From Candidatus Omnitrophota bacterium (GTDB taxonomy: Bacteria; Omnitrophota; Gorgyraeia; B26-G9): 48,035 nt of DNA. Positions 4,416 to 45,245 of this stretch are shown piece after piece (the first letter of the stretch is position 1; every line of letters starts with the position of its first letter). Position numbers and translations under genes: made by a program. Where the stretch lies: assembly GCA_018817165.1 (NCBI GenBank), contig JAHITY010000098.1, positions 1 through 48,035 of the forward strand. The letters are read 5' to 3'. The notes beneath the pieces were generated by a model, which was not told the DNA's origin, ran no database searches, and was given only the letters and a program-made list of their open reading frames with translations.

Positions 4416-4458
4416 TTGGTTCCTCCCTAAACAATAAAATTAATAAGAGTGCTAAAGC

Positions 4459-15861: not shown

Positions 15862-15923
15862 ACAAATATATTGTCGGAGCCAGGGCTTAATAATAATCAA
15901 GCTTTGTTGTCTTGTAATATTTA

Positions 15924-15946
15924 ATACTATACTAAAATAATAGTAT
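15924..15946. promoter_or_regulatory. AT-rich inverted repeat upstream of the cusC-like gene
   Basis: ATACTAT (15924-15930) and ATAGTAT (15940-15946) form an inverted repeat with a 9-bp spacer in the 165-bp gap before the outer-membrane factor gene. It could be an operator for a metal-responsive regulator, but it is not a recognised CueR or CsoR box. Confidence 0.3.
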
Positions 15947-16026
15947 ATGTGTAATATATTTAGTTATATAATAATATTAGCATTAGAATATTTAAATACG
16001 CAGTATTTTAAAGGGGAGATAAATAT

Positions 16027-17388
16027 ATGCGCTTAACCAGAGCATTTCTGATATTATTCTTAATATTATTACAGGTCAGCAATAGCTATGCTTCTTCTGA
16101 AATCAGCCAGCGAAATCAGCAGCTTAAATCTGCGGAGCAGATGATGCGGAACAATCAGAACCAGTTTGAATCTGAGGCTGGCTTGAAAGATTATATCAGA
16201 ACAGGTCTGGAGAATAATCCCGGACTTAAAGAAAAATTTTATAATTGGCAAGCGGCATTTACTAATATCTCTCAGGCTTTTTCTCTGCCTGATCCGCAAT
16301 TTACTTTTACCGAATATATTGATTCAGTGGAAACTCGTGTCGGGCCTCAGCAAAGAGCTTTTTCTTTAACTCAAAAAATTCCTTTGTCAGATAAACTCTG
16401 GATAAAGAAATCAAAAGCATTCAATGCTTCTGAAGAAGCATATTATCAATTTGAAACCATGCGCTCGGCAATGATTTATCAAATAACCGATGCTTATTAT
16501 GAATATGCTTATTTAAACAAGGCGATTCTCTTAACTCAGGAGAATATTGAATTATTAACAAATTTTGAAAGTGTGGCTGAGGCTAAATATAAATCAGGAT
16601 TAGCTAAAAATCAGGATTTATTAAAAATCCAGGTTGAACTGGGCAAACTGGAAAATGACTTATTGAGTCAGCAGGACATGCGGGAGCCATTGGCTGCTAG
16701 ATTGCGGATGTTGCTGAACCTGCCGAATAATATTGCTTTGCCATGGCCTGATGAATCGCTGGAAGACGCGGTTATGGAGGAAAACTACAATAATATAGAA
16801 ACGCTTTATCCTACGCTTAAAAGTAAAAATCCGGAAATATTAGCTTTGTCGGAAAAAATTGAAAAAAACAAGGATGCTGTGAAACTCAGTAAAAGAGATT
16901 ATATTCCTGATCTTACTTTAGGGATTACTCAGATTGTTACTGGTGACGCGCTTAATCCAAATACTGTTGATAGTGGAAAGGACGCATTGATGGTTATGCT
17001 TTCCGTGAATGTTCCGATTTGGAATAACCGCTTGGGCGCTCAAGTTCAGGAATCAAGAGCATCTTTAAAAGCAGCGGAAAATTTATTGCAGAGCAAGGAA
17101 AACGAACTGTTTTCAAAATTAGCACTGGTGCATTATAAGCTTCGCGATTCCCTGAGGCAGTCTCAGCTGTATAAAGACGGATTACTGCCTAAGGCAGCGC
17201 AGGCTTTAAATTCTGTGCAGTCAAGTTATGAATCCGGTGGAGTTGATTTTCTTTCTTTGATCGATGCGCAGAGAATGCTGCTTAATTTTCAATTAGCATA
17301 TTATCGCCAAAATGCGAATTTTTATCAGCGCTTGGCGGAATTGCAGAATATCTTGGGAGAGGTTGAGAAATACCAGGAATTAAAATAA
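16027..17388 (+). CDS. TolC-family outer-membrane efflux protein (CusC-like)
   Basis: A 453-residue outer-membrane factor with a signal peptide (MRLTRAFLILFLILLQVSNS, cut near YAS). No lipobox is seen, unlike E. coli CusC. The sequence has the two-fold repeated OEP helix pattern: GLENNPGLKEKFYNWQAAF opens the first half and KSKNPEILALSEKIEKNKDA the second. It would form the trimeric exit duct of the pump, docked to the adaptor encoded 33 nt downstream. A GGGGAG ribosome-binding site precedes the ATG. The assignment to metal efflux rests on the neighbouring adaptor and RND genes. Confidence 0.9.
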   Translation: MRLTRAFLILFLILLQVSNSYASSEISQRNQQLKSAEQMMRNNQNQFESEAGLKDYIRTGLENNPGLKEKFYNWQAAFTNISQAFSLPDPQFTFTEYIDSVETRVGPQQRAFSLTQKIPLSDKLWIKKSKAFNASEEAYYQFETMRSAMIYQITDAYYEYAYLNKAILLTQENIELLTNFESVAEAKYKSGLAKNQDLLKIQVELGKLENDLLSQQDMREPLAARLRMLLNLPNNIALPWPDESLEDAVMEENYNNIETLYPTLKSKNPEILALSEKIEKNKDAVKLSKRDYIPDLTLGITQIVTGDALNPNTVDSGKDALMVMLSVNVPIWNNRLGAQVQESRASLKAAENLLQSKENELFSKLALVHYKLRDSLRQSQLYKDGLLPKAAQALNSVQSSYESGGVDFLSLIDAQRMLLNFQLAYYRQNANFYQRLAELQNILGEVEKYQELK

Positions 17389-28317: not shown

Positions 28318-28611
28318 ATGCAGATAAGCAAAAAGAGGTGTATTATTGCTGCTAAGAAAAATGATCCATGGTTTATTTATATCGCTAAATGCCGAGATAA
28401 GACTTTATATATTGGGATGACCAATGATGTAGATAAACGGATTAAAGCGCATAATACAACCAGTATTTGCAAGTATACACGAGCGAGAAAGCCGATAACA
28501 CTGGTCTATCATGAAAAATGTAAGAATCGGACCAATGCTGCTAAAAGAGAAATAGAATTAAAAAAATATTCCAGAGCGCAAAAACTGGAACTGATAAAAA
28601 ATCTAGCTTAG
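28318..28611 (+). CDS. GIY-YIG domain protein (YhbQ/UPF0213-like)
   Basis: A small single-domain GIY-YIG nuclease-fold protein of up to 97 residues. The fold signature is WFIYIAKCRDKTLYIGMTND, then VDKRIKAHN, Arg-rich middle and a conserved Glu in AAKREIELKKY. Family members of this size are structure-selective or uncharacterised nucleases, common in bacterial chromosomes and not mobile in themselves. The start is doubtful: ATG 28318 has no ribosome-binding site and almost no leader, while AGAGGTG at 28332-28338 sits just before in-frame ATT codons, which would give a protein of about 89 residues. It is the last gene before the tRNA. Confidence 0.85.
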   Translation: MQISKKRCIIAAKKNDPWFIYIAKCRDKTLYIGMTNDVDKRIKAHNTTSICKYTRARKPITLVYHEKCKNRTNAAKREIELKKYSRAQKLELIKNLA

Positions 28612-28634: not shown

Positions 28635-28691
28635 GACCTCTTACCAGAAAAATAGGTTCGAGGTCCAAAAATTTAACTTATAAATTTTTGG
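28635..28691. repeat. Two stem-loops abutting the tRNA-Ser 5' end
   Basis: GACCTC-tt-ACC pairs with GGT-tc-GAGGTC (28635-28665). Next, CCAAAAATTTA (28665-28675) and TAAATTTTTGG (28681-28691) form a perfect 11-bp stem with a 5-nt loop. The last two G of this stem are the first two bases of the tRNA. The first may terminate the GIY-YIG transcript; the second may affect tRNA processing or transcription. Confidence 0.5.
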
Positions 28692-28778
28692 AGAGGTGTC
28701 CGAGCGGTTTAAGGAGCACGCTTGGAAAGCGTGTGTAGCCACAAGTTACCCAGGGTTCAAATCCCTGCCTCTCCGCCA
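28690..28778 (+). tRNA. tRNA-Ser (GGA anticodon)
   Basis: An 89-nt class II tRNA. The acceptor GGAGAGG pairs with CCTCTCC, with G as discriminator and an encoded CCA. The anticodon stem CACGC/GCGTG encloses the loop TTGGAAA with anticodon GGA at 28724-28726. A long variable arm (GTAGCCACAAGTTACC region) and the T-arm CAGGG-TTCAAAT-CCCTG are clear. It decodes UCC/UCU. It sits at the left edge of the accessory region, and its 3' end is duplicated 234 bp further on. Confidence 0.97.
28759..28778 (+). repeat. Attachment-like direct repeat, copy 1 (inside tRNA-Ser)
   Basis: The 20-bp block AAATCCCTGCCTCTCCGCCA forms the T-loop to CCA end of tRNA-Ser. It recurs without mismatch at 28993-29012. This is the usual footprint of a site-specific integration into a tRNA 3' end. 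Confidence 0.75.
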
Positions 28779-28822: not shown

Positions 28823-28992
28823 AGAGCAAGCTGGATTCGAACCCTAAAAAAGGGTTTTAGGGAAAAAGACCGTTTTTCCCTATCGGCGAGATGCGCTTAC
28901 CTGTGAAGGAAGGGGTCACCAAGGGGAAAACATAAGGGTTTCCCTTTGGGGAGTGAGTGGACTGTTTCCCAAGGGAGCGACACGACGGATTG
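28823..28992. other. Hairpin-rich segment between the two tRNA 3'-end copies
   Basis: No gene is seen. The segment is packed with GGGAAA/TTTCCC-type inverted repeats: CCCTAAAA/TTTTAGGG (28842-28862), an overlapping and mutually exclusive TAGGGAAAAA/TTTTTCCCTA (28858-28882), and CCAAGGGGAAA/TTTCCCTTTGG with one G-T pair (28919-28949). TTTCCC and AAGGG recur again at 28973-28985. It could be an attachment region with recombinase arm sites, or a structured RNA; neither is proven. Confidence 0.5.
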
Positions 28993-29012
28993 AAATCCCT
29001 GCCTCTCCGCCA
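28993..29012 (+). repeat. Attachment-like direct repeat, copy 2
   Basis: This is an exact 20-bp copy of the tRNA-Ser 3' end. The bases before it (GACGGATTG) do not match the tRNA T-stem, so it is only a 3' fragment and not a second tRNA. A third copy was not found downstream to the end of the window. Confidence 0.75.
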
Positions 29013-29018
29013 GATATT

Positions 29019-29058
29019 TACCCTATCTTCAAATTCATCGAGGATAGGGTAGTTTTTT
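29019..29058 (+). terminator. Rho-independent terminator
   Basis: TACCCTATC (29019-29027) pairs perfectly with GATAGGGTA (29043-29051), followed by GTTTTTT. It sits just outside copy 2 of the repeat and is most simply the original terminator of the tRNA or of a lost gene. Confidence 0.8.
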
Positions 29059-29069
29059 GTCCTAATTCC

Positions 29070-29164
29070 CTATATTTCCAATAACATATATCATCAGCCA
29101 AGAACAGTCAACATCAGTTATCATCAGATAGGAATTGTCTGTTTTTTGTGATTTATGTGGTGGG
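29070..29164 (+). repeat. Diverged leader repeat, left copy
   Basis: This begins CTATATTTCCAATAACAT, runs through ATCATCAG and GGAATTGTCT, and ends TTTATGTGGTGGG. It matches the segment at 32045-32109 with scattered substitutions and a 30-bp insertion (an internal duplication around ATCATCAG). Both copies lie upstream of a small HTH gene. Confidence 0.65.
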
Positions 29165-29233
29165 AATGTGGTGATAAGCACCAGTTAAAATGTATAATTA
29201 ACATATGTAGCGGAGAGTGGGGCATTCTAAGGC

Positions 29234-29440
29234 GTGGAAAAATTGTTAACTGTCCCCCAAGTTTGTGAGCTCCTACAAGTAAGCCAAGCATTGGTTTATA
29301 AATGGGAGTATTATGGTTTTGTTCCGTATATTAAATTGGGGACAAAGTTAAGCTTCAAGCAATCAAAGCTAGAGCGGTGGATCGAAGACAGGCAAGCTAA
29401 AGGAAGGAAAACATATAAAATTAAGAATTTTTCTTTGTAG
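29234..29440 (+). CDS. Excisionase-like helix-turn-helix protein
   Basis: A 68-residue DNA-binding protein of the HTH_17/MerR-like excisionase family: LTVPQVCELLQVSQALVYKW is the HTH, followed by the wing IKLGTKLSFKQSKLERWIED. Such proteins act as recombination directionality factors or small regulators. The start is GTG 29234; the ribosome-binding site is poor (AAGG 1 nt away, GGAGAG further up). It stands 89 bp before the hicAB module and 222 bp after attachment-like copy 2. No integrase accompanies it, so a regulatory role for the adjacent module is as likely as excision. Confidence 0.82.
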   Translation: MEKLLTVPQVCELLQVSQALVYKWEYYGFVPYIKLGTKLSFKQSKLERWIEDRQAKGRKTYKIKNFSL

Positions 29441-29443
29441 CTA

Positions 29444-29519
29444 TTGACAAGTGGAACCTAATATGATACCATTATAATAGATTTATTGAAAAAAAGGGGC
29501 TGATATGGTACCATTATTA
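29444..29519 (+). promoter_or_regulatory. hicAB promoter region with paired operator-like sites
   Basis: TTGACA (29444-29449) is followed after 17 bp by TACCAT (29467-29472), a weak -10; TATAAT at 29473-29478 is perfect but 23 bp away. Two related sites, ATATGATACCATTATAA (29461-29477) and ATATGGTACCATTATTA (29503-29519), lie exactly 42 bp apart, four helical turns. The second contains the perfect palindrome ATGGTACCAT. This fits binding by the HicB antitoxin encoded below, which would repress its own operon. Confidence 0.55.
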
Positions 29520-29529
29520 AGGAGCGGTA

Positions 29530-29781
29530 ATGTCAGAAGTTCAAGCAATATATGCAAAAGCTCAGACTTCGCCGAATAACATAACTTTTAGTGAGCTATG
29601 TGCTTTGATAGAAGGTGTTGGGTTTGAATTTAAGAGACAAAAAGGATCACATAGGATTTATAAGCACAAGGCAATTCATTATGCTGATTGCTTGCTTCCT
29701 GTGCAAGATAGAAAAGGTAATGCTAAACCTTACCAGGTTAGGCAAGTCTTAAAAATTATAGATTCGTATAATCTGTTATAG
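29530..29781 (+). CDS. hicA: HicA toxin (mRNA interferase)
   Basis: An 83-residue HicA-family toxin with a dsRBD-like fold that cleaves mRNA when free of its antitoxin. The family core FSELCALIEGVGFEFKRQKG is followed by SHRIYKH with the catalytic His at residue 41. The end NAKPYQVRQVLKII matches the C-terminal helix. AAGGAG precedes the ATG by 5 nt. HicB is encoded 17 nt downstream. It is slightly longer than the smallest HicA proteins because of an N-terminal helix (SEVQAIYAKAQTSP). Confidence 0.92.
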   Translation: MSEVQAIYAKAQTSPNNITFSELCALIEGVGFEFKRQKGSHRIYKHKAIHYADCLLPVQDRKGNAKPYQVRQVLKIIDSYNLL

Positions 29782-29798
29782 AATAAAGGGGGTTTAAA

Positions 29799-30290
29799 GT
29801 GAATTACTCTATAAATATTGTGTGGAGCGATGAAGACGAGGGTTTTATTGCAACTGTGCCTGAATTAAAAAATTTGTCAGCGTTTGGGGAAACTTATGAA
29901 GAGGCTGTAAAAGAAGTAAAAGATGTTATTGAAGGATATATTGAAACATTGGAAGAAGATAATATTGATATACCTGCGCCTAGTACATTGTCATGTTTTA
30001 GCGGTCAAACAAGAATTAGAATGCCAAAAAAATTACATCAACTATTAAGTATTGAAGCGGAGCGTGAAGGAGTTTCCTTGAATATGTTGATGGTTACCTT
30101 GTTGTCGCTTAATTATGGGTTAGCTTTAAAGAAAAATAAATCAAAAGATGTGTTTATGGTATATCTTAATGATAACAAGACAGCGAATTATGATTTGCGT
30201 TTGCCAAATGGTGACACTTCTAGGTTTTCTGGATCTGGTCAAGTGCGACTAAACAATAACAGAAATAAAGTAGGAGAGGGGTTATGGTAA
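29799..30290 (+). CDS. hicB: HicB antitoxin, extended
   Basis: A 163-residue antitoxin. The N-terminal HicB domain (SDEDEGFIATVPELKNLSAF then EEAVKEVKDVIEGYIE) is a partial RNase H-like fold that binds HicA. A DNA-binding ribbon-helix-helix segment follows (RIRMPKKLHQLLSIEAEREG, VSLNMLMVTLLS). The last 55 residues, after the DNA-binding part, form an extra polar tail that usual HicB proteins of 110-140 residues lack. The start is GTG 29799 with AAGGGGG upstream. The stop overlaps the next gene's ATG (TTATGGTAA), so a third protein is translationally coupled to the pair. Confidence 0.9.
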   Translation: MNYSINIVWSDEDEGFIATVPELKNLSAFGETYEEAVKEVKDVIEGYIETLEEDNIDIPAPSTLSCFSGQTRIRMPKKLHQLLSIEAEREGVSLNMLMVTLLSLNYGLALKKNKSKDVFMVYLNDNKTANYDLRLPNGDTSRFSGSGQVRLNNNRNKVGEGLW

Positions 30291-30691
30291 CTAATATTCT
30301 TTGTGTTATTTGTAAAGATATTATAGAAGATAAAGAAACTAAAATGGTTAGCTATATTAACTGTATTGAAAGAGTAGGGTCGGATAAGTTCCCAGCTAAC
30401 TTACCTTCCGTTTCTTTAGGGACAGCTTGGATTAAAGATTCTAATGTTGAAGAAAAATTTAAGCTTAGGGTAAAATTATTATTTCCAGACAATGAAGAGA
30501 AAGTTTTATTAGAAACTCCAGATAATATAATAAAAGGAGATAGGCATAGGGTAAATTTTGTAATATCTGGGTTTCCTTTAAAAAAAGAAGGACAACATCG
30601 TTTAGTGGTTGAAAAGCTTGGTCAAAATAGCTGGGAATTTGCAGGATCGGCATCTCTTATGGCCGCAAAAAATGTTGTTAGGGGTAAGTAA
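30284..30691 (+). CDS. Hypothetical protein coupled to hicAB (DUF6941-like pattern)
   Basis: A 135-residue soluble protein with no signal peptide, probably beta-rich. The layout, starting NILCVICKDIIEDKETKMVS and ending GFPLKKEGQHRLVVEKLGQN before WEFAG, resembles the DUF6941 family of small beta-sandwich proteins of unknown function; this match is from memory and weak. Its ATG overlaps the hicB stop by 7 nt. It may be a cargo gene of the toxin-antitoxin unit or a third component. The PIN-domain gene follows after 45 bp with its own ribosome-binding site. Confidence 0.75.
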   Translation: MVTNILCVICKDIIEDKETKMVSYINCIERVGSDKFPANLPSVSLGTAWIKDSNVEEKFKLRVKLLFPDNEEKVLLETPDNIIKGDRHRVNFVISGFPLKKEGQHRLVVEKLGQNSWEFAGSASLMAAKNVVRGK

Positions 30692-30736
30692 CTTTTATAA
30701 TAATCATATATTGCAATAACAAGGAGCAAAAAATAT

Positions 30737-31816
30737 ATGAAATATGTTTTTATTGATACTAATATTCTTCTAAATTTCTATGCTTTTCATAAGGATCATA
30801 TTGATAAACTGGAAAAGATTATCAATCTTATGAAGGAGAAAAAAATTATACTAATTCTTCCTCAGCAGACTGTTGATGAGTTTAACAGAAGAAGAGAGGA
30901 TAAATTTAAGGAAACACTTGAACATATTGATAGTTTTAAAATTAAATTTGCTACCCCTGTTTCCTGCCACGGTACGAGCGAAATACAAATAATTAAAGAT
31001 GGTATTCAACGAGTACATAAAGCTTTAAAAAATCTACATAATAAATTACTCAAACAGATAGGAACCAAATCATTACCTGCAGATTCTTTAATTTATAAAA
31101 TTTTTAAAACAGCTGATATAATTCCAATATCAGACAAGCTGCTTAGTATTGCTAAGAGGCGAGTTGACTTAGGGAATCCTCCTGGAAAGAGGGGGTCTTA
31201 TTGTGATGCTATTAATTGGGAGTGCATCTTAGAAAACATCCCCAATGGTAAAGATTTGTATTTTGTAAGTGAAGATGGGGATTATGCTTCAGTTATTGAT
31301 CCTAAAAATCTTTCGGATTTTTTAAAAGATGAATGGGCTAGAAGAGTAAGCTCCAAAATTTATTTTTATCAATCACTATCCGAATTTTTGAAAGATAAAT
31401 TTACTGAAGTTAAAATAACGGCTAAGGAGATAGCAGAAGAAAAGCAGGCCATCGAAGAGGCATCATCAGAGAGGGTGACTACCCCCCCTGTATCCGCATT
31501 GCTTCGAATGATCGAAGAAGCAAAAGTTCGGAGCAAGGAAATGGAAAAATTCTATAAAGATACAGGGACAAGTCCATTAGTAAGCATTATTAAAGAAGCC
31601 AAGGCTCAGAGCGAAGCAATGAAAAATTTTTATACAGAAACAAGTAAGGGCCCATTGGTTAAAATGCTTGAAGAAATGAAAGCTCGGAGCAAGGAAATGG
31701 AAAAATTCTATAAAGATGTAGGAACAAGTCCAATAGCAAACAGTTTTAAAGAGGTCAAGGCTCAGAGTGAAGCAATGAGAAAATCCTTCAAAGGGTTAAG
31801 TAGCGAAAAGAAATAA
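30737..31816 (+). CDS. PIN-domain ribonuclease-like protein with C-terminal 26-residue repeats
   Basis: A 359-residue protein. The N-terminal about 210 residues form a PIN-like domain of the DUF4935 type: FIDTNILLNFYAF (Asp7), LPQQTVDEFNRRRE, then YCDAINWE and YFVSEDGDYAS supply the other acidic residues expected of a metal-dependent RNase. From about residue 253 there are four tandem repeats of about 26 residues, alternating RSKEMEKFYKDTGTS and AQSEAMKNFYTETSKG types, likely helical or coiled-coil. At DNA level 31529-31561 and 31685-31717 are identical, 156 bp apart, so the array grew by a two-unit duplication. AAGGAG precedes the ATG. Confidence 0.85.
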   Translation: MKYVFIDTNILLNFYAFHKDHIDKLEKIINLMKEKKIILILPQQTVDEFNRRREDKFKETLEHIDSFKIKFATPVSCHGTSEIQIIKDGIQRVHKALKNLHNKLLKQIGTKSLPADSLIYKIFKTADIIPISDKLLSIAKRRVDLGNPPGKRGSYCDAINWECILENIPNGKDLYFVSEDGDYASVIDPKNLSDFLKDEWARRVSSKIYFYQSLSEFLKDKFTEVKITAKEIAEEKQAIEEASSERVTTPPVSALLRMIEEAKVRSKEMEKFYKDTGTSPLVSIIKEAKAQSEAMKNFYTETSKGPLVKMLEEMKARSKEMEKFYKDVGTSPIANSFKEVKAQSEAMRKSFKGLSSEKK

Positions 31817-31871
31817 AAATTCTATTAATACTTATTTAGTGCCCAAACAGTGTCCATCCAAGGTGAATCTG

Positions 31872-31955
31872 TTGTGTAATCTTGTAAAATGTTGTAGAAA
31901 ATTGTATAAACACTAATTACTTAATAATAAATGATTTAAATTGTAATTAATTGTA
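31872..31955 (+). repeat. TTGTA motif array with 10-bp period
   Basis: TTGT begins at 31872, 31882, 31892 and 31902, exactly 10 bp apart, and again at 31941 and 31951. Five of the six read TTGTA and one TTGTG. The spacing places all sites on one face of the helix, as for cooperative protein binding. Confidence 0.55.
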
Positions 31956-32044
31956 TAATAATGAGTTAAGAAAAACAACCTTAACGAATCCTTCATTTTC
32001 CGCTAGTTATTTCGGTTTTAAACTATCAATTTAATTATAACTCT

Positions 32045-32109
32045 CTATATTTTCAACAACATCTATCATCAGAGGGGAATTGTCTATTTTTAATGGTTTA
32101 TGTGGTGGG
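32045..32109 (+). repeat. Diverged leader repeat, right copy
   Basis: This begins CTATATTTTCAACAACAT, continues ATCATCAG and GGAATTGTCT, and ends TTTATGTGGTGGG. It matches 29070-29164 in the same orientation but lacks the 30-bp insertion. The copies enclose the first HTH gene, hicAB and the PIN gene. Confidence 0.65.
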
Positions 32110-32233
32110 GTGCTAGATGGTTCATCATATTTATTAAATCACTATTGAAGATGTGCATACGAACTCTTCTAATTATGATGAAAATCAGCAGAGTTCTTTA
32201 ATCTATGAGAATAATTTCCGGGTTGTGTAATGG

Positions 32234-32389
32234 ATGGTAGAGGAGTATAATTATTACATGTTGTTATCTCCTTACATGTTGCGCCGTTTATGCAGTGAGG
32301 GTAAAATCCCTTGTTTTAAGTTTGGAGAGCAGTGGAGGTTTGACAAAGGAGATATTTTAATGTGGAGAAAAAACAATGGCTTTCAATGA
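32234..32389 (+). CDS. Truncated excisionase-like HTH protein upstream of hsdR
   Basis: A 51-residue reading frame. The second half fits the HTH_17 pattern: SPYMLRRLCSEGKIPCFKFG followed by EQWRFDKGDILMWRKNN, i.e. recognition helix, EGKIP turn, wing and terminal helix. The first helix of the domain is missing or unrecognisable, so this may be a decayed copy of the gene at 29234 or a short regulator. ATG 32234 has no strong ribosome-binding site. Its stop lies inside hsdR, a 14-nt overlap, so reading it could couple translation to hsdR. Confidence 0.5.
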   Translation: MVEEYNYYMLLSPYMLRRLCSEGKIPCFKFGEQWRFDKGDILMWRKNNGFQ

Positions 32390-35300
32390 AGATACTAGAG
32401 TAAAAATCCCAGCAATTTTGCATATATGCAAATTAGGATATGAATATCTTTCTTTATCAAATGCAGTAAGGGATGAAGGGACGAACATTTTTACTGATAT
32501 CTTCATGGATAGCCTTCTGCGCATTAATCCAGATATAGAAAAAGAGGATCTTAAAAAAGTATTTGAGGAAGTGTCTTTGTCCCTAGACAATGAAGACCTT
32601 GGACAATATTTTTATGAGAAACTTACTGCTACATCAGGAATTAAGCTTATTGATTTTAAGGATTTTGATAACAACTCGTTTCATGTTGTGACTGAACTTA
32701 CCTGTAAAAATGGAGATGACGAATTCCGCCCGGATATCACGTTACTTATTAATGGGATGCCATTAGCATTTATTGAAGTTAAAAAGCCTAATAATATTGA
32801 AGGAGTTCTTGCTGAACGCAATAGAATCAACATCCGCTTTCAAAATAATAAATTCCGGAAATTCATTAATATTTCTCAGGTATTAGTTTTCTCAAATAAT
32901 ATGGAATACGATCCGAATGTTGTTGAGCCTATCCAAGGCGCCTTTTATGCTTCAACATCTACTGGTGATATCGATTTTAATTATTTTAGAGAAGAGGAAG
33001 ATTTAGATCTTTCAGTTTTGCTCAAATCCATTACTGAAGATACCGAAGATTTTGTATTAAAAGATAATAACCTTAATATTATTAAGCACTCACCGGAATT
33101 TATAACAAATAAAAATTCAGATACACCAACAAATAGAATCCTTACATCATTATTTAATCGCAGTAGATTATCGTTTATCTTGCGTTATGGGATTACTTAT
33201 GTGAAAAGTGAAACAGGAATCAAAAAACATATAATGCGTTATCCGCAAGTATTTGCCACAAAAGCGATAGAGCGCAAAATTGAAGATGGGACAAGAAAAG
33301 GTATTATTTGGCATACGCAAGGCAGTGGCAAGACTGCATTGGCATATTACAACGTTGCCTATCTAACTGACTATTTTAAGTCTAAGGGAATCGTTCCAAA
33401 ATTCTATTTTATTGTAGACCGTCTTGATTTATTAAATCAAGCCAAGAGGGAGTTCTCAAGCAGGGGGTTAATCGTTCATATTGTTAATTCAAGGGATGAA
33501 TTTGCTAATGATATTAAGCTATCAAGTGCTATTCATAACAATGAAGGGAAAGCTGAAATTACTGTTGTAAATATTCAGAAGTTTAAAGATGATCCTGATG
33601 TTGTCAAAAGAAATGACTACAATATTAACATTCAACGAGTTTATTTCTTAGATGAAGTACATAGAAGCTATAACCCAACGGGTAGTTTTTTGGCAAATCT
33701 TTCTTCTTCAGATGAGAATGCTATAAAGATCGGTTTAACGGGAACTCCGCTATTGGGAGATGATTATAATTCAAGAGCATTATTTGGTAATTATATCCAT
33801 AAGTATTATTACAACGCTTCTATTGCTGATGGCTATACTTTGAGATTGATTCGTGAGGAAATAGAAACAAGTTACAAAATAATGCTTCAAAAGGTTCTGG
33901 AAAATATAAAAGTGATCCAAGGTAATTTAGATAAGAGAGAGGTTTATTCTCATCATAAGTTTGTTGAGCCAATGCTGGATTATATTATTGAGGATTTTGA
34001 AAAAAGCCGAATTATGCATGCAGATAACAGTATCGGTGGAATGGTTGTATGTGATAGCTCTGACCAGGCAAAGATGATGTTTGAAATTTTTAAAGAAAAG
34101 TATGCGGGTGAAAAGAAAGAGGAATACGAGGGCATTGATATTGTTGCTGAACCAGTTGTTTCGTATGGTTCGAAGCATAAAACAGCAATGAAGGTAAAAA
34201 TAGCAGCTTTAATATTGCACGATGTGGGCACAAAAGATGAGCGCAAGAAATTGGTGGAAGATTTTAAGGACGGTAAGATTGATTTCTTGTTTGTGTATAA
34301 TATGTTGTTAACTGGATTTGATGCCAGCCGTCTTAAAAAGTTTTATTTAGGGAGAGTAATTAAAAGCCATAATCTTTTACAGGCTCTTACTAGAGTTAAT
34401 CGGCCATACAAGAAGTTTAGATATGGTTATGTTGTTGATTTTGCGGACATTAAAAAAGAATTTGATGTGACAAATAAAGCATATATGGATGAGTTACAAG
34501 CTGAATTAGGTGATGAAACAGAACATTATAGTAATTTGTTTAAATCAAAAGAAGAAATTGAAGTAGAGATTCAAGAGATAAAGGATGTGTTGTTTCATTA
34601 TAATACTGAAAATTCTGAAATATTTTCACAACAGATAAGTGAGATTCAAGATCGTAATAAAATGCTGCAAATTCTTAGGGTTTTGGGCAATGCGCGTGGA
34701 TTATATAATCTTATCCGCCTTTTTGGGCATTATGAATTATTGGAGAAGCTTGATTTTAAAAAGCTTTCAACGTTATATCGTGAAGCGAGTAATCATTTAA
34801 ATCTTTTGAATATGAAGGAAAAAGTTGAAAACGCTACGGATTCCTCAAATTTGTTAAACATTGCTTTAGAAGATTTGATTTTTAAATTTGTCAAAATATC
34901 CGAGGAAGAGCTTGTCTTAGCAGATGAGCTAAAAAACATCCTTCAGAAAACACGTGAGGCATTGGTTGATAACTTTGACAAAAAGGATTTAAGGTTTGTG
35001 TCTTTGAAAGAGGAGCTAGAGCGATTATTTAAAAAGAAGAATTTAAGTGAAATCACACAAGAAGAGATGACGGCTAATATCGGTTGCTTAACAAAAATAT
35101 TTGAAAGAATTAAAGAGTTAAACCGAGAAGACAATTTATTAAAAGAAAAATATCAGCACGATAAAAAATATGTTCGCATACATAAGCGATTGATCGAGAA
35201 TCAAACTATTTCTAAAAAAGAGAGCACTATTTTTGATGCTTTGCTGGGGGTTAAAATCAAGGCAGATGAACAGGTATTGCATAATAATCAGTTATTGAGC

Positions 35301-35456
35301 AATGAAGGTTATTTTGACAGGATGATGACGGGATATGTTGTTGATCAATTTCAAACAAGAAATGGAGTAAAATTAACGCCGGATTCTACAAAATATATCA
35401 ATAAATTAGTCGTTAATGAATATATAAAAGAATTCAATGGAGAATCTGAATGGTAA
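32376..35456 (+). CDS. hsdR: Type I restriction enzyme R subunit (HsdR)
   Basis: A 1,026-residue motor and nuclease subunit that translocates DNA and cuts unmethylated DNA far from the target site. The N-terminal PD-(D/E)XK nuclease has RPDITLL (Asp about 120) and FIEVKKPN (Glu134, Lys136). The SF2 translocase follows with Walker A TQGSGKTALA (about 314), LDEVHRS (motif II, about 425), TGTPLLG (motif III) and ALTRVNRPYK (motif VI). The C-terminal helical domain is intact. GGAG lies 9 nt before the ATG. Its stop overlaps the hsdM start (ATGGTAA), the first of two overlaps in the operon. Order R-M-S in one operon. Confidence 0.95.
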   Translation: MAFNEDTRVKIPAILHICKLGYEYLSLSNAVRDEGTNIFTDIFMDSLLRINPDIEKEDLKKVFEEVSLSLDNEDLGQYFYEKLTATSGIKLIDFKDFDNNSFHVVTELTCKNGDDEFRPDITLLINGMPLAFIEVKKPNNIEGVLAERNRINIRFQNNKFRKFINISQVLVFSNNMEYDPNVVEPIQGAFYASTSTGDIDFNYFREEEDLDLSVLLKSITEDTEDFVLKDNNLNIIKHSPEFITNKNSDTPTNRILTSLFNRSRLSFILRYGITYVKSETGIKKHIMRYPQVFATKAIERKIEDGTRKGIIWHTQGSGKTALAYYNVAYLTDYFKSKGIVPKFYFIVDRLDLLNQAKREFSSRGLIVHIVNSRDEFANDIKLSSAIHNNEGKAEITVVNIQKFKDDPDVVKRNDYNINIQRVYFLDEVHRSYNPTGSFLANLSSSDENAIKIGLTGTPLLGDDYNSRALFGNYIHKYYYNASIADGYTLRLIREEIETSYKIMLQKVLENIKVIQGNLDKREVYSHHKFVEPMLDYIIEDFEKSRIMHADNSIGGMVVCDSSDQAKMMFEIFKEKYAGEKKEEYEGIDIVAEPVVSYGSKHKTAMKVKIAALILHDVGTKDERKKLVEDFKDGKIDFLFVYNMLLTGFDASRLKKFYLGRVIKSHNLLQALTRVNRPYKKFRYGYVVDFADIKKEFDVTNKAYMDELQAELGDETEHYSNLFKSKEEIEVEIQEIKDVLFHYNTENSEIFSQQISEIQDRNKMLQILRVLGNARGLYNLIRLFGHYELLEKLDFKKLSTLYREASNHLNLLNMKEKVENATDSSNLLNIALEDLIFKFVKISEEELVLADELKNILQKTREALVDNFDKKDLRFVSLKEELERLFKKKNLSEITQEEMTANIGCLTKIFERIKELNREDNLLKEKYQHDKKYVRIHKRLIENQTISKKESTIFDALLGVKIKADEQVLHNNQLLSNEGYFDRMMTGYVVDQFQTRNGVKLTPDSTKYINKLVVNEYIKEFNGESEW

Positions 35457-37078
35457 CTGCGGACTTTCAAAAGGAAGCTAAAGATTTAATTGATAAATTA
35501 AAAAAAATTTGCGCGAATTATGGGCTGGGAAATGATGGTAATGAATTTAAAATTATCACACAGGTTTTTCTGTATAAGTTTTTGAATGATAAATTCGCTT
35601 ATGTTGTTAAACAAATAGATCAAAAGCTGAGTAAGGCTGACAATTGGGAAGAAGAACTTTCTAAATATTCTGATGATGAATATGAAATGCTGCTTTTTAA
35701 GTTGAAAGCCGACACCGCTCGGTTAAAGAAACAACATTTTATATCATATTTATTTGAAAGACAAAGTAAATCTGATTTTTCAAAATTATTCGATGATACC
35801 TTGCGCGATATAGCTATTTATAATAATGATATATTTGCGGTTAAAACGGACACAGGCCAAAAAATTGTGCTTTTCGACGAGATTAGTCAGTACATATCTG
35901 ATAGTTCTCGTAGAGATGAATTTTGTCGTGCTCTTATTAATCCATTGGTTAATTTTAGCTTTGAAGGAATATTTTCTCAGAAATTCGATTTCTTCTCGAC
36001 TCTTTTTGAGTATCTTATTAAGGATTACAATAAAGATGGCGGGGGAAAATATGCGGAATATTATACTCCTCATGCTGTTTCCAAAATTATGGCATCTATC
36101 TTGGTTGATAAACCAGTAAGTAATGTAACTTGTTATGATCCATCAGCTGGTTCTGGAACGCTTCTTATGAGTCTTGCTCATGCGATCGGCGAAGATCGTT
36201 GTTCAATATTCTCACAGGATATTTCTCAAAAATCATCAAGTCTTTTAAGGCTTAACTTAATTTTAAATAATCTTATTCATTCAATTCCAAATATCATACG
36301 TGGAAATACGATAAAGGATCCTTATCATAAAGATGGTAAAAATTTAAAAAAATTCGACTATATTGTTTCCAATCCACCATTCAAGCTTGATTTTAGCGAT
36401 TTTCGAGAAGATGTAGATACAAAAGAAAATCATGAAAGATTTTTTGCAGGCATTCCCAAGATAAAGAAAAAAGCTATAGATAAAATGGAGATATATCTTT
36501 TATTTATTCAACATATCATGTATTCTTTATCGGAAAAGGGCAAGGCCGCAATTGTGGTTCCTACTGGCTTCATTACAGCGGCTTCAGGTATCCCGATGAA
36601 AATTCGTGAAAAATTAGTTGAAGAAAAAATGCTGCGGGGTGTTGTTTCAATGCCGAGTAATATTTTTGCCACGACAGGAACCAATGTTTCCATTCTATTT
36701 TTAGATAAAGCTAACACAAAAGGTGACATAGTGTTAATGGATGCCTCTAAGTTGGGAACAACAGTAAAGGAGGGCAAGAACCAGAAAACCCTCCTATCTC
36801 CAGAAGAGGAAGAATTAATCATTAAAACATTTAATGACCATAAACCTGTGGAGGATTTTACGGTAGTGGTCTCTTATAATCAAATCAAAGAGAAGAACTA
36901 TTCATTGAGCGCAGGGCAATATTTTGATGTGAAGATTGAATACACAGATATTACAGCTGGGGAATTTCAAAGAAAGATGGATAGTTATAAGACCAATCTT
37001 GATAAGTTGTTTGGAGAATCAAAAGAGATGGAGAAGGAAATCAAAAAACATTTGTGTGGATTGAAATACGATGAATAG
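35450..37078 (+). CDS. hsdM: Type I restriction-modification methyltransferase (HsdM)
   Basis: A 542-residue adenine-N6 methyltransferase subunit. The N-terminal helical HsdM_N domain (DFQKEAKDLIDKLKKICANY) is followed by the SAM-binding motif DPSAGSGTLL (about 229) and the catalytic motif SNPPFKL (about 307), which marks N6-adenine methylation. With HsdS it forms M2S and protects host DNA. The gene overlaps both neighbours (7 nt with hsdR, 8 nt with hsdS), giving coupled translation. No frameshift is seen, so the system looks complete. Confidence 0.95.
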   Translation: MVTADFQKEAKDLIDKLKKICANYGLGNDGNEFKIITQVFLYKFLNDKFAYVVKQIDQKLSKADNWEEELSKYSDDEYEMLLFKLKADTARLKKQHFISYLFERQSKSDFSKLFDDTLRDIAIYNNDIFAVKTDTGQKIVLFDEISQYISDSSRRDEFCRALINPLVNFSFEGIFSQKFDFFSTLFEYLIKDYNKDGGGKYAEYYTPHAVSKIMASILVDKPVSNVTCYDPSAGSGTLLMSLAHAIGEDRCSIFSQDISQKSSSLLRLNLILNNLIHSIPNIIRGNTIKDPYHKDGKNLKKFDYIVSNPPFKLDFSDFREDVDTKENHERFFAGIPKIKKKAIDKMEIYLLFIQHIMYSLSEKGKAAIVVPTGFITAASGIPMKIREKLVEEKMLRGVVSMPSNIFATTGTNVSILFLDKANTKGDIVLMDASKLGTTVKEGKNQKTLLSPEEEELIIKTFNDHKPVEDFTVVVSYNQIKEKNYSLSAGQYFDVKIEYTDITAGEFQRKMDSYKTNLDKLFGESKEMEKEIKKHLCGLKYDE

Positions 37079-38252
37079 TCCAACTATTGGTAACTCGTGT
37101 AATATTACTACAGGGAAGCTCGATTCTAATCATGCAGTTAGTGGCGGGAAATTTCCTTTCTTCACCTGCGCGGTAACCCCAGATACGATCGACTCTTTTG
37201 CTTTTGATGATAATGTGGTTTTAGTGGCAGGCAATAACGCTCAAGGCAATTTTCATGTAAATCGGTATAAAGGAAAATTCAACGCTTATCAAAGAACGTA
37301 TGTTTTGACGGCCAAACCAGAATTTGAAATCGATTTCATATATTATTCTTTAAAACTTGAATTAAAACGACTGAAAGAAAGGTGTCAAGGATCGCAAACT
37401 AAATTTCTTACGAAGCCAATTTTAACGAGTATTCACTTAAGGGATATTGATAAAATTGCTCAGCAAAAAATTGGCGCTGTTCTTTCGGCATTAGATTCCA
37501 AAATCGAGCTTAACAACTGCATTAATTCAGAATTAGAAGCTATGGCAAAAACGTTATACGATTATTGGTTTGTTCAATTCGATTTCCCCGATAAAAACGG
37601 TAAGCCCTACAAAACCAGTGGTGGTAAAATGGTTTGGAATGAAAAGCTGAAACGTGACATTCCCGAGGGCTGGAAGGTGAAACGAATTGGAGATTTCGGA
37701 GAGTTTAAAAATGGAATAAATTATGACCCATCTTTAGAAGGTGATACAGATGCAAAAATTATAAATGTTAGAAATATAAGCAGTTCAAATCTTTTTATTT
37801 CACAATATGATCTTGACATAATTAGATTACAGGAATCAAATGTAAATAACTACTTAGTTACTGATAAAGACATCTTAATAGCAAGAAGTGGGATCCCTGG
37901 AGCTACACGTATGATGTTTGAATTTGCTAAGAATACAATTTATTGTGGCTTTATTATAAGATTTCAAGTAAATACTTTAATTGAAAAAAATTATCTTTTC
38001 TACTTCTTGAAAGATATGGAGAAAAATACAACTTCAAAATCGGGTGGTACAATTATGTCGAATGTGAACCAAGATACAATGAAGCGTATGATTGTTATCG
38101 AACCTAATGACCAAATTGTTATTAAATTTAATGAGTTCATCAATCCAATCTTTAGCAAAATAAATGGCATAATTCAAGAAAATCAAAAACTCACCGAACT
38201 CCGAGATTGGCTTCTTCCGATGTTAATGAATGGGCAAGTTAAGGTTAGTTAA
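37071..38252 (+). CDS. hsdS: Type I restriction-modification specificity subunit (HsdS)
   Basis: A 393-residue specificity subunit with two target-recognition domains, each reading half of a bipartite site, and conserved helical spacers. TRD1 begins ITTGKLDSNHAVSGGKFPFF. The central spacer has QQKIGAVLSALDSKIELNN and MAKTLYDYWFVQFDF. TRD2 starts at GWKVKRIGDFGEF, and the C-terminal spacer ends QKLTELRDWLLPMLMNGQV. The N-terminus is about ten residues shorter than in many homologs: the usual W-x5-LGD lead is nearly absent. Its ATG overlaps the hsdM stop. The recognised sequence cannot be predicted from this sequence alone. Confidence 0.93.
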   Translation: MNSPTIGNSCNITTGKLDSNHAVSGGKFPFFTCAVTPDTIDSFAFDDNVVLVAGNNAQGNFHVNRYKGKFNAYQRTYVLTAKPEFEIDFIYYSLKLELKRLKERCQGSQTKFLTKPILTSIHLRDIDKIAQQKIGAVLSALDSKIELNNCINSELEAMAKTLYDYWFVQFDFPDKNGKPYKTSGGKMVWNEKLKRDIPEGWKVKRIGDFGEFKNGINYDPSLEGDTDAKIINVRNISSSNLFISQYDLDIIRLQESNVNNYLVTDKDILIARSGIPGATRMMFEFAKNTIYCGFIIRFQVNTLIEKNYLFYFLKDMEKNTTSKSGGTIMSNVNQDTMKRMIVIEPNDQIVIKFNEFINPIFSKINGIIQENQKLTELRDWLLPMLMNGQVKVS

Positions 38253-40626: not shown

Positions 40627-40746
40627 ATGTTATATGAAGAAATATATAAAAATAAAACATTAAAAATAATACCCAAAGAATGCAAAAAAAACAAGGTTTG
40701 GATTGTTAATGAAAACGATTTTAAAATACACTCATTTAGAAGCTAG
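40627..40746 (+). CDS. Possible 39-residue small protein or leader peptide before the RT
   Basis: The frame begins MLYEEIYKNKTLKIIPKE and ends HSFRS before TAG. It has a good ribosome-binding site (AGGTG 7 nt before ATG), which is better than those of its neighbours, but that site lies in the hairpin stem. The frame overlaps the RT start by about 38 nt in another frame, so its translation could control RT expression. The small size means it could be chance. Confidence 0.3.
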   Translation: MLYEEIYKNKTLKIIPKECKKNKVWIVNENDFKIHSFRS

Positions 40747-42238
40747 GCGATACTTTCTGAAAGAAGAAAGCTATTTTAATTTTGATCTTCCTCCATATTT
40801 TAATTTCCAAAATCTTATCACTAAACTATCAAAAAAAATGGACAATAAATTGCTTTCGGATTTCTATGGAACTTGTAAAAGCGCAAATACTAAAAAAATA
40901 AAAGCAACTTATCCAAGCGAATTTGAAGATGTAAACTATAAACTGCTTAATAATAAAGATGGGCGATTTGCATGGCGTCCATTTCAGCTCATACATCCAG
41001 CCATCTATGTTTCCCTTGTTCATCGGATTACCGAAGAACAAAATTGGAAGTTTATAATTAAAAGATTTAAGGATTTTAGCAAGAATCCGCGAATATCTTG
41101 TTTTAGCATTCCTTTAGAATCAAATAGCAAAACATCAGATAAAGCAAGAGCTGTTATGAATTGGTGGCATTCCATTGAACAAAGATCTATAGGTTTGGCG
41201 TTAGAGTACGAATATATCCTACATACAGATATTTCGGATTGTTATGGCTCTCTTTACACTCATACAATTCCTTGGGCTCTACATTCCAAAAAGACAGCAA
41301 AGGAAGAAAGGGATAATAAGCAGTTAATTGGTAATGTGATTGATAAACATCTTCAGGATATGTCTTTTGGACAAACAAATGGGATTCCTCAGGGCAGTGC
41401 TTTAATGGACTTTATTGCTGAAATGGTTTTAGGATATGCTGATCTTGAATTATCAAAAAGAGTCAAACGATTTAAATTAGATGATTTTCAAATACTTCGA
41501 TATAGGGATGATTATCGGATATTAGCGAATAACCCTCAAGATGCAGAGTTTATAGTAAAACATATTACGGAAATTATGATTGACCTGGGAATGCAACTGA
41601 GTGCAAAAAAAACATTACTTTCCAGCGATGTGGTACAAGATTCGATTAAGCCAGATAAACTGTTTTGGCTTTCCAATAAAAAGGAAACAGGTAATTTGCA
41701 AAAAGATTTGTTACTGATACACAATCTTTCAAAAAAACATCCAAATTCAGGTAGTTTAACTAGAGCGTTGCATGAGTTTTTTTATCGGGTTGAAAATATT
41801 AAAAAAACTAAACGAAACAGTTCTGTTCTTATAAGCATTATTATTGATATTGCTTACAAAAATCCACGGACATATCCGGTTTCAGCTGCAATCCTTAGTA
41901 AGCTTGTAACCTTAATTGGTTCAGAAAAAGAGCAAAGCAGGATATTAGCTCTAATTCTAAGACGCTTTGAAAAAATCCCAAATACCGGATACTTACAAAT
42001 ATGGCTTCAGAGAGTTCTTTTAAAAACTAAAAAGAATTGTAGGTTTAATGAATGTTTATGTAAAAAAGTAATTAATCCAAGTGTTTCTATATGGAACTCT
42101 GATTGGCTTAAAACTTCTTTGAAAAACATTATAAGTTTTACTCCTATTGTTGATAAAAAAATAATCCAAAAAATAAATAAAACAATTGATGCAAAAGAAG
42201 TAGAACTTTTTGAGTTGAAGTCGGGTTATACTTATTGA
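40709..42238 (+). CDS. Reverse transcriptase of the defence (UG/Abi, DRT-like) type
   Basis: A 509-residue reverse transcriptase. Visible RT motifs: motif A HTDISDCYGSLYTHTIPWAL (about residue 172), motif B GIPQGSALMDFIAEMV (about 224) and the catalytic RYRDDYRIL (YRDD about 264), followed by motif D/E. There is no maturase X/HNH domain as in group II introns, and the VTG-type motif of retrons is not evident. A helical C-terminal part of about 200 residues follows the polymerase domain, as in AbiK/AbiP2-type and other UG-group RTs that act in antiphage defence. I cannot assign the UG subgroup. ATG 40709 is used; TTG 40703 fits the weak AAGG better and is an alternative. The next gene starts 16 nt after the stop. 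Confidence 0.88.
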   Translation: MKTILKYTHLEARRYFLKEESYFNFDLPPYFNFQNLITKLSKKMDNKLLSDFYGTCKSANTKKIKATYPSEFEDVNYKLLNNKDGRFAWRPFQLIHPAIYVSLVHRITEEQNWKFIIKRFKDFSKNPRISCFSIPLESNSKTSDKARAVMNWWHSIEQRSIGLALEYEYILHTDISDCYGSLYTHTIPWALHSKKTAKEERDNKQLIGNVIDKHLQDMSFGQTNGIPQGSALMDFIAEMVLGYADLELSKRVKRFKLDDFQILRYRDDYRILANNPQDAEFIVKHITEIMIDLGMQLSAKKTLLSSDVVQDSIKPDKLFWLSNKKETGNLQKDLLLIHNLSKKHPNSGSLTRALHEFFYRVENIKKTKRNSSVLISIIIDIAYKNPRTYPVSAAILSKLVTLIGSEKEQSRILALILRRFEKIPNTGYLQIWLQRVLLKTKKNCRFNECLCKKVINPSVSIWNSDWLKTSLKNIISFTPIVDKKIIQKINKTIDAKEVELFELKSGYTY

Positions 42239-43127: not shown

Positions 43128-44150
43128 ATGTCTAAAAGACAAGATAATACAAAAATATCCTACGAAATAGATCCGTATAACCGATTAATTATCAATGATT
43201 CCAGTAAACAAAGCCAACTCTCCAGATTCAGACAAGTTCTTGACGGCAGATTCAAAATTAATCCGGACAATTCAGTATCTTATCTTGTAAAATCTCCTAT
43301 GCCAAATGACCAGGAAATGCCATACCAGGTTAAACTTGAAGGCAACTGGTCTTTGGATAAAGAGCATAATTTATGCCTTAGTTTAAATAAATGGGGCAGA
43401 CAGACTTTAGGGGATAAATTAACTCTTCAGGCAGATATTATGGATGTTGAGAAAAATTCTCTGCTTTTCAGCGTGACTACCACAAACAAAGATAATACGC
43501 AGTCAATATATATCCTTAAACTCCAGGGAGCGTGGCAGGCGGATAAAAACAATCGGCTGACATTTAGAGTGCAAAAAGAAGAAGGCAGTCATGATATTCT
43601 TACTTTTAAAGGAAGTTGGGAAATAAATAAACAGCATCAGATTATTTATCAATACGAAAAGGCTCAGCTGATCCGCAAAGAGAAAAATATTCAGATTTTA
43701 ACATTCCAAGGTTATTGGGATATTAAAGATAAAGGCAGATTATCTTATGTTTTGGATTTGCAGTCTGATTCAGTGTTTAATTTTAAAACTAGCGCGGCTG
43801 TGTTTAAAGATAAATATATTAAATATGAATTAGGCATTGGTTTGGGCAAGAGCCCGGAAGAGCAGATAATTACGCTTTGCGGTAAATGGAAAATTAAAAA
43901 AGATATTGGCTTGGTATTTGAAGTGGAATATGAAAATGGAAATATCCGGGCAATTACTTTTGGCGCGGAAGCAAAGCTGACTGAGAAAAATAGTATAAGT
44001 TTTGAATTGAAGAACGATCAGAATAAAAACATCAGCGCTCAGCTACAGCTTTCCCGAAAGATATTAGACGGAGAAGGTTTATCGTTTTTGCGGTTTTTAA
44101 AGTCGAAGGATGAAACAGTTGTTACGGTTGGGGCAGGTCTTTCTTGGTGA
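43128..44150 (+). CDS. Repetitive beta-rich protein with G-x-W repeats
   Basis: A 340-residue protein with no signal peptide. It is built of at least six units of about 30-50 residues, each with a G-x-(W/F) core: LDGRFKINPDNSVSY, LEGNWSLDKEHNLCLSL, LQGAWQADKNNRLTF, FKGSWEINKQHQIIY, FQGYWDIKDKGRLSYV, LCGKWKIKKDIGLVF. Each gives a hairpin of two strands, so the whole could form a beta-barrel or a beta-sheet stack. The last residue is an aromatic (LSW), as in many outer-membrane barrels, but export would need a signal that is absent. No family is recognised; I have seen similar layouts only as uncharacterised proteins. Confidence 0.75.
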   Translation: MSKRQDNTKISYEIDPYNRLIINDSSKQSQLSRFRQVLDGRFKINPDNSVSYLVKSPMPNDQEMPYQVKLEGNWSLDKEHNLCLSLNKWGRQTLGDKLTLQADIMDVEKNSLLFSVTTTNKDNTQSIYILKLQGAWQADKNNRLTFRVQKEEGSHDILTFKGSWEINKQHQIIYQYEKAQLIRKEKNIQILTFQGYWDIKDKGRLSYVLDLQSDSVFNFKTSAAVFKDKYIKYELGIGLGKSPEEQIITLCGKWKIKKDIGLVFEVEYENGNIRAITFGAEAKLTEKNSISFELKNDQNKNISAQLQLSRKILDGEGLSFLRFLKSKDETVVTVGAGLSW

Positions 44151-44160
44151 AATGTAAAGG

Positions 44161-44188
44161 TCACCAGGACACAAAGTCACAAGGACAC
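44161..44188 (+). repeat. CAC-AGGACACAAAG direct repeat, right copy
   Basis: TCACCAGGACACAAAGTCAC plus AAGGACAC. It matches 43065-43087 except for a few bases and lies 10 bp after the repetitive gene. The GGACAC unit recurs within it. Confidence 0.6.
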
Positions 44189-44221
44189 AGGTAATAATGT
44201 ATAGGTTTAAAAGGAGGAGCT

Positions 44222-44833
44222 ATGAAGATTAGTGTAGGAATATTGATTTTTGTTTTATGTTATTCGATTGTTTTTTGCAATCAGGTATTTTGTTTCGATG
44301 GCGAACAACCTAATCTTAATGATAAAAATAAAGAAGACGCCAGTTTGAAAAATTTTTGGGAAAAAGAGCAGCTTTTATTAGATCAAAAAATTCAGGAAGG
44401 GAAAATCCTTAAAATAAAAGGATTATATTTGGGGATGAATATAGACGAGGCCTTTAAAATTATCCCCGACGCATTAAAGGATAGTTTAGCGTTAGGTGCA
44501 TTTAGGGGGATTGAGGAGGGATATATTATCGTTGATCAGCCATTTTATAATAAGTTCATTATTACATCTAATGATAATAAACAGGTTAAAAAAATAATAT
44601 TAACTAGTGGCGCGGTAGACATGCTTTTTAATACAGATGGTTTGCCGGCAGAAGATTTTATTCAGAAGTTTAAGGAAAGCTATAAAATAGATAATCTAGA
44701 GCCCCTTTTTGAAGAAGATGGTTCAATTAGCTGGAAATTTATATCTACTGATGGATATAAATTAATCTTAACGAGCGAAAAAGATATTCTGTTAGAAGAA
44801 ATAGCAGCATCATCTGAAATGCAGTTTGATTGA
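44222..44833 (+). CDS. Exported hypothetical protein
   Basis: A 203-residue protein with a signal peptide (about 1-24, MKISVGILIFVLCYSIVFCN). The mature region has an acidic linker, then a domain beginning KIKGLYLGMNIDEAFKIIPD. The x-GLYLGM-x-x-(D/E)-EA pattern recurs in small secreted bacterial domains of unknown function. AAGGAGG precedes the ATG. It heads a run of tightly packed plus-strand genes that continues to the window edge. No enzymatic motif is visible. Confidence 0.78.
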   Translation: MKISVGILIFVLCYSIVFCNQVFCFDGEQPNLNDKNKEDASLKNFWEKEQLLLDQKIQEGKILKIKGLYLGMNIDEAFKIIPDALKDSLALGAFRGIEEGYIIVDQPFYNKFIITSNDNKQVKKIILTSGAVDMLFNTDGLPAEDFIQKFKESYKIDNLEPLFEEDGSISWKFISTDGYKLILTSEKDILLEEIAASSEMQFD

Positions 44834-44862
44834 AAAATTGCTATACGAGAAAGGAAAAGAAT

Positions 44863-45231
44863 ATGGATTGGATAATTGATCTAACTGGGAAGTATTGGTT
44901 GATTGCAATTTTAGCAAGTGTGTGCTGTGGAATCTATGGCTTAAATTACGAAAAGAATAAAATAGAAGAAAAAGGGAACCCAAAAAAGACAGAAAAAAGT
45001 GGCGAGGAATTCAGGAAAGAAAACATTTTTAGCTTTTGGTGGAAAGATAAAATAGAGGCATTAGGAATCTTATTTTCTGAGTTTATAGGTTCTTTTGCGG
45101 GGTGGTATTGTCTTTTTCTTCTTGCGACCAGGTGGTGTAAACCTGTAGAACTTGGGGCTTTCGATGTAGGGTTAGCAACTATTGCAGTTATTTGTATCTC
45201 TGGATATTCATATAAACTAGTGAATAAGTAA
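44863..45231 (+). CDS. Small membrane protein
   Basis: A 122-residue protein with about three membrane segments: WLIAILASVCCGIYGL near the N-terminus, LGILFSEFIGSFAGWYCLFL in the middle and VGLATIAVICISGYSYKL at the end, separated by a charged loop rich in Lys and Glu. The start ATG 44863 has AAAGGAAAAGA upstream; a TTG start 33 nt earlier would overlap the preceding gene and is rejected. It is followed after 14 nt by the papain-like protease gene, so the two are probably cotranslated. Function unknown. Confidence 0.72.
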   Translation: MDWIIDLTGKYWLIAILASVCCGIYGLNYEKNKIEEKGNPKKTEKSGEEFRKENIFSFWWKDKIEALGILFSEFIGSFAGWYCLFLLATRWCKPVELGAFDVGLATIAVICISGYSYKLVNK

Positions 45232-45245
45232 TTGGAGGACAGAAA

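Follow-up and report, generated by a model that had tools for sequence, protein, structure and literature searches.

A conserved non-coding leader as the probable left end of integrative elements in serine tRNA genes of Omnitrophota

The leader that occurs twice in the DNA analysed here (a stretch of 48,035 nucleotides, hereafter the window) is very probably the attL-proximal arm of integrative elements that form one family in Omnitrophota and target the 3' ends of serine tRNA genes. Sequence and geometry establish the left ends of these elements; we infer their mobility and protein binding. The successive leaders in the window would mark a stack of two islands behind a single tRNA gene, with partial decay of one or both.

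Results

Two related leaders precede different gene modules

The original prediction had described two diverged leaders in the same orientation, and their presence was borne out. Positions 29108-29164 aligned with 32053-32109 (57 nt, 84%) and positions 29063-29097 with 32038-32072 (35 nt, 86%); a blastn search within the window gave E = 7e-10. Their kinship exceeds chance, the Smith-Waterman score of the pair being 69 compared to a maximum of 32 across 1000 dinucleotide shuffles. Compared to leader 1, leader 2 lacks about 30 nt of the middle and the second ATGTGGTG; it represents a short subtype that is also found in the relative G010. Repeats could be mis-joined in a MAG assembly; the window contig is continuous through both leaders. 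The features of the locus are as follows:

28690-28778, + strand: tRNA-Ser(GGA), integration target (ARAGORN; Rfam RF00005, E 2.9e-10)
28993-29012, + strand: att core, a copy of the tRNA-Ser 3' end, AAATCCCTGCCTCTCCGCCA (exact 20-nt match), directly left of element 1
29013-29068, + strand: fixed-length spacer with a terminator-like hairpin (CCA end to leader 1 start, 57 bp)
29069-29173, + strand: leader 1, conserved left-end (attL) arm region of an integrative element
29155-29173, + strand: tandem arm-type repeat ATGTGGTG-N3-ATGTGGTG, 143 and 154 bp past the CCA end
29234-29440, + strand: HTH_17 protein type 1, likely a cargo regulator (Pfam PF12728, E 8.5e-9)
29530-29781, + strand: HicA toxin (PF07927)
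29799-30290, + strand: HicB antitoxin (PF15919/PF05534)
30284-30691, + strand: DUF6941 protein (PF22091)
30737-31816, + strand: PIN_12-domain protein with three C-terminal 78-bp repeats (PF16289)
31986-32006, + strand: degenerate att core (15/21 to GAATCCCTGCCTCTCCGCCAG), candidate for the decayed junction of elements 1 and 2
32045-32110, + strand: leader 2, left-end arm region that is shortened and decayed, with a single arm repeat remaining
32231-32389, + strand: HTH_17 protein type 2, 52-codon frame (PF12728, E 1.1e-7)
32376-35456, + strand: HsdR, type I restriction subunit
35450-37078, + strand: HsdM
37071-38252, + strand: HsdS
40703-42238, + strand: AbiP2-type defence reverse transcriptase, further cargo (PADLOC AbiP2, E 6.8e-205)

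Pfam matches agree with the gene order that had been predicted, with a PF12728 HTH frame behind each leader (29234-29440 and 32231-32389), then HicA/HicB, DUF6941 and PIN_12 after leader 1 and HsdR/HsdM/HsdS after leader 2. That both are defence modules holds for HsdRMS, which, like the AbiP2-type reverse transcriptase, is among the recognised defence genes of the window. HicAB, DUF6941 and PIN_12 gave no PADLOC match, and the same label for the first module is therefore plausible but unproven. The three C-terminal repeats of the PIN_12 protein (31497-31782) are in frame and 68-84% identical. Further to the right, positions 46073-46972 encode an EVE-domain protein with a weak match to the NucS C-terminal endonuclease.

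On contig 24 of the relative G006, a tRNA-Ser(GGA) with a leader has a type I restriction system in the corresponding place. Since genes at window positions 43151-44118 and 45233-46001 are shared with this contig at 75-80%, the variable block of the window extends from about 29.2 to 43.1 kb. The block from 43151 to 46001, which matches G006 contig 24 downstream of its tRNA-Ser(GGA), includes a papain-family protease, and the upstream neighbours differ.

Leader 1 lies at a fixed distance from a tRNA-Ser 3' end

The tRNA-Ser(GGA) gene and the copy of its 3' end had both been missed by the original prediction. An Rfam scan detected only the tRNA, everything else falling far below the gathering scores. 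The geometry of leader 1 is intact, and the spacer hairpin is also present in the relatives G006 and G010. The region between the tRNA-Ser and the core copy (28830-28993) is part of a mosaic dispersed repeat with about 14 genomic places, its copies often lying near tRNA-Ser-like T-arm fragments (GACACGACGGGTTCCAATCCC). A GIY-YIG ORF is located just upstream of the tRNA-Ser (28318-28611); similar ORFs are found beside tRNA-Ser in L051, L052 and contig C49 of the same genome, where the ORF is cut by the contig end.

An intact core before leader 2 was rejected, as only 4-5 of 21 positions matched at the literal 57-bp spacing and no core was found at 57-58 bp. The degenerate core at 31986-32006 lies 38 bp from leader 2, compared to the standard 57 bp. 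Its match was reached by none of 2000 shuffles, and it is the sole + strand match of at least 13/20 in the 19 kb beyond 29012. We infer that this site is the decayed junction of elements 1 and 2. Element 1 would then have an intact attL and, on the right, this degenerate core; like a cis-mobilizable element, it carries no integration genes. The window, whose contig ends at position 48035, contains neither an integrase nor a clean right attachment site.

Complete elements in related genomes carry an integrase at the opposite end

A DNA search detected the leader in 8 of 58 related genomes, and a profile search of 384 genomes of the class detected it in 14. Within the class it extends to further genera and families, the named records being Omnitrophota, and is conserved at about 75% between families. 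Complete elements have the order tRNA-Ser, leader, cargo, excisionase-like wHTH gene, tyrosine recombinase, tandem arm repeat and tRNA 3'-end copy. Two of them lie on single contigs:

G023 (L056, DAOVJY010000003), about 11.9 kb: tRNA-Ser(GCT); leader 4431-4535; integrase 15053-16153; 24-nt tRNA-end repeat 16217-16240
G014 (L054), about 7.4 kb: tRNA-Ser(GCT); layout as in G023; 18-nt tRNA-end repeat

The tRNA 3'-end direct repeat thus occurs at both boundaries in L056 (24 nt) and L054 (18 nt), while in the window the left copy alone is intact. The wHTH gene abuts the tyrosine recombinase in G023 and G014, and a recombinase with a PF00589 domain lies near one end in L056, L063 and L086. The integrase was present in 8 of 13 genomes with the leader and in 11 of 279 without it (Fisher p = 7e-8; 292 genomes scanned).

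Using leader 1 to search its own assembly (3.08 Mb, 143 contigs), we obtained four good matches, of which two are the window leaders and two are C49:9123-9226(-) and C32:3980-4077(-), each of these about 90% identical to leader 1. The C49 leader, which has a tRNA-Ser(GCT) upstream, is followed by a LexA-like protein, a cytosine methylase, a type II restriction enzyme, a Vsr-like ORF (assigned by sequence rather than by a domain scan) and a KAP-like NTPase ORF; the C32 leader is followed by an XRE-ImmA protein, a PIN-like ORF and an EcoRI-type methylase. On contigs C132 and C21 the motif TTATGTGGTGG...ATGTGGTG precedes the tRNA-Ser 3' end rather than following it, which identifies these as opposite (right) ends. 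The integrase of this genome is intact on C95, together with the wHTH gene, and occurs with an internal stop on C132 and as a fragment on C13. The terminal sequence of C95 is the starting sequence of C21 and C132; these are candidates for the right end of the window.

In G071 (L063), a tRNA-Ser(GGA), a leader, a xis-like HTH gene, an integrase, a core and a second leader at the standard spacing follow one another within 3.4 kb. This is a directly observed tandem pair of elements, head to tail, and explains how two leaders come to lie in the same orientation. The stacked elements of L063 (193-330 and 3270-3367) carry the arm words ACGTGAAC and ATGTGGTG. In G057 (L116 7174-9109), two right ends, each with arm repeats and a core, lie 1.9 kb apart; a leader is not apparent after the first right end, and the second element may be right-end-only or decayed. 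An island of G016 (L092 8133-16437) also occupies tRNA-Ser(GGA); its integrase is more distant (39%), GGTGG-type repeats lie at each of its ends, and its leader was not recognisable by profile.

The leader pair of the window could instead have arisen by local duplication within one island, or by homologous recombination of left ends, rather than by two integrations. This would account for the missing core at the correct spacing before leader 2 and would suit the mosaic nature of the left ends, whose identity stops at differing points past the leader. We nevertheless regard it as unlikely, because leader 2 shares its subtype with G010 and its HTH gene with G006, not with leader 1, because 19 kb contain just one further core-like site, 38 bp ahead of leader 2, and because G071 contains a real tandem array.

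The leader is positioned relative to the tRNA and has the layout of an attachment region

At 11 sites, defined by a core or tRNA end directly preceding the leader (with G057 adjusted for a later profile start), the leader starts 57-58 bp past the CCA end, irrespective of whether the isoacceptor is GCT, GGA or TGA. By comparison, the following gene lies 23 to 489 bp from the leader in the ORF lists. The leader is thus positioned relative to the tRNA and not relative to the following gene. Against this reading, some leaders (C49, C32, G006 and G011) lie 244-602 bp from a tRNA-Ser or lack one, and their core is altered.

On the left side, the tandem arm repeats begin 143-145 and 154-156 bp rightward of the core; on the right side, they stop 60-62 and 49-50 bp short of the CCA end. 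The spacing is the same for different words (ATGTGGTG, GTGTGGTG and ACGTGAA), so that each side of the core has arm-type repeats that match those of the other side and keep a fixed distance. In a permutation test over 8 elements, the words at the two ends of an element agreed (p = 0.004; for the window's own genome, G059 and G111 the paired ends come from different contigs of one genome). A core plus arm sites is the layout expected for a tyrosine recombinase attachment region, and the leader, with its core and predicted arm sites, has the expected layout. The earlier suggestion of a common docking element of the island gains support from both the fixed tRNA 3'-end distance and the matching repeats at the integrase end.

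The genes that follow the leader are variable. A search of other genomes, as had been proposed, gave many different modules in several genomes, and in most copies examined the cargo included restriction, methylation or other defence genes. The first gene past the leader may be HTH_17 of type 1 or type 2, LexA-like, XRE-ImmA or XRE, or there may be no HTH gene. Homologous HTH genes thus do not follow each leader; in particular, the presumed kinship of the two in the window failed, types 1 and 2 sharing no pairwise BLAST similarity at E <= 10. The leader-2 type alone is found again together with its HTH gene: behind the leader of G006 contig 136 lies a type 2 relative (85% over 141 bp), followed by a SNF2-type helicase in place of hsdRMS, and the leader-2 subtype thus travels with this gene. 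We also considered the two post-leader HTH genes as excisionases and rejected them; in the elements inspected, a conserved excisionase-like wHTH gene overlaps or abuts the integrase at the opposite end instead. Of the idea that modules arrive with a shared upstream unit, the leader as a docking element stands, but leader plus HTH gene as a general unit does not, since the HTH genes differ.

A regulatory role, in which the leader is an operator or leader RNA for the downstream HTH gene and defence module and is carried along with the modules, would fit its constant place ahead of the first gene, with the same orientation and in many cases with a regulator (LexA-like, XRE, HTH_17) next in line, as well as the ACAGGCAA...TTGCCTGT inverted repeat followed by Ts that is seen by eye in some leaders. 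This appears improbable to us, given that the leader keeps a constant 57-58 bp from the tRNA end but lies anywhere from 23 to 489 bp from the next gene, that the HTH genes differ between leaders, and that the words of the leader-end repeats recur at the integrase end, where they lead no gene. The inverted repeat is broken in six leaders (w1, C49, G011, G059, G121 and G057), and the leader as a hairpin or terminator was rejected on these grounds. That the leader is a dispersed MITE-like repeat with no integration role is hardly credible: four copies exist in one genome and the tRNA-to-core region is itself a dispersed repeat, but no terminal inverted repeats were seen, the leader is about 75% conserved between families and linked to an integrase, and the fixed spacing of its copies to a tRNA-Ser or its 3' end largely excludes this reading.

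Discussion

We favor the leader as the left arm of an integrative element. In complete members, the opposite end carries a tyrosine recombinase gene and the overlapping or abutting excisionase-like wHTH gene. To integrate or excise the element, the recombinase would presumably bind the tRNA 3'-end core as well as the tandem arm repeats of either end. Two such elements appear to be stacked behind tRNA-Ser(GGA) in the window. Element 1, at about 29.0-32.0 kb, would comprise leader 1, HTH, hicAB, DUF6941 and PIN, and element 2 leader 2, HTH, hsdRMS and onward. Both lack an integrase of their own in the window, and the junction and leader 2 are probably decayed; in these respects they resemble cis-mobilizable remnants.

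The elements resemble tRNA- or tmRNA-targeted islands and integrative mobilizable elements in their tRNA 3'-end integration, direct repeat, integrase near one end, excisionase-like wHTH gene and arm repeats. Unlike known islands of this kind, the Omnitrophota integrase had no match in 50,697 phage records, and in IMG/VR only a 25% partial match. No phage genes were recognised among the part of the ORFs that was scanned, and no relaxase among the Pfam matches of window ORFs scanned from 24.3 kb to the window end. In tandem accretion, islands are stacked behind one RNA gene, and some of them, the cis-mobilizable elements (CIMEs), have att sites but no integration module (PMC5704250); the window and G071 match this picture. 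Dehalococcoides ssrA islands use serine recombinases and the ssrA site (PMC3146451), whereas the Omnitrophota family has a tyrosine recombinase, tRNA-Ser and largely defence-type cargo. In E. coli, defence systems occur in islands with only an integrase, whose mobilisation is unclear (PMC10121019). The present family is similar in this respect but differs in phylum, integrase and site, and has as its own feature a defined non-coding end common to its islands. The kind of element, a tRNA-targeted island with tandem accretion, is therefore known, while as far as shown by the literature searched, in which we found no paper on Omnitrophota tRNA-Ser islands, the family, its host phylum and its defined end are undescribed.

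Arm-repeat words across the family include ATGTGGTG, GTGTGGTG, ACGTGAAC and the GGTGG type, and G071 combines a ACGTGAAC element with a ATGTGGTG element at one tRNA-Ser. It is possible, if somewhat doubtful, that tRNA-Ser genes act as defence slots with one core and left-end architecture and diversified arm words, so that elements with different words could stack and move independently and defence cassettes that lack an integrase but have a matching word could be moved in trans. The pairing of arm repeats with integrase subfamilies is testable and could decide which cassettes move together. The leader provides a non-coding signature of precisely where mobile defence islands begin on the left in a phylum that is mostly uncultured. 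This signature is usable even when the integrase is lost or lies on another contig, and helps in locating defence cargo and in interpreting stacked islands.
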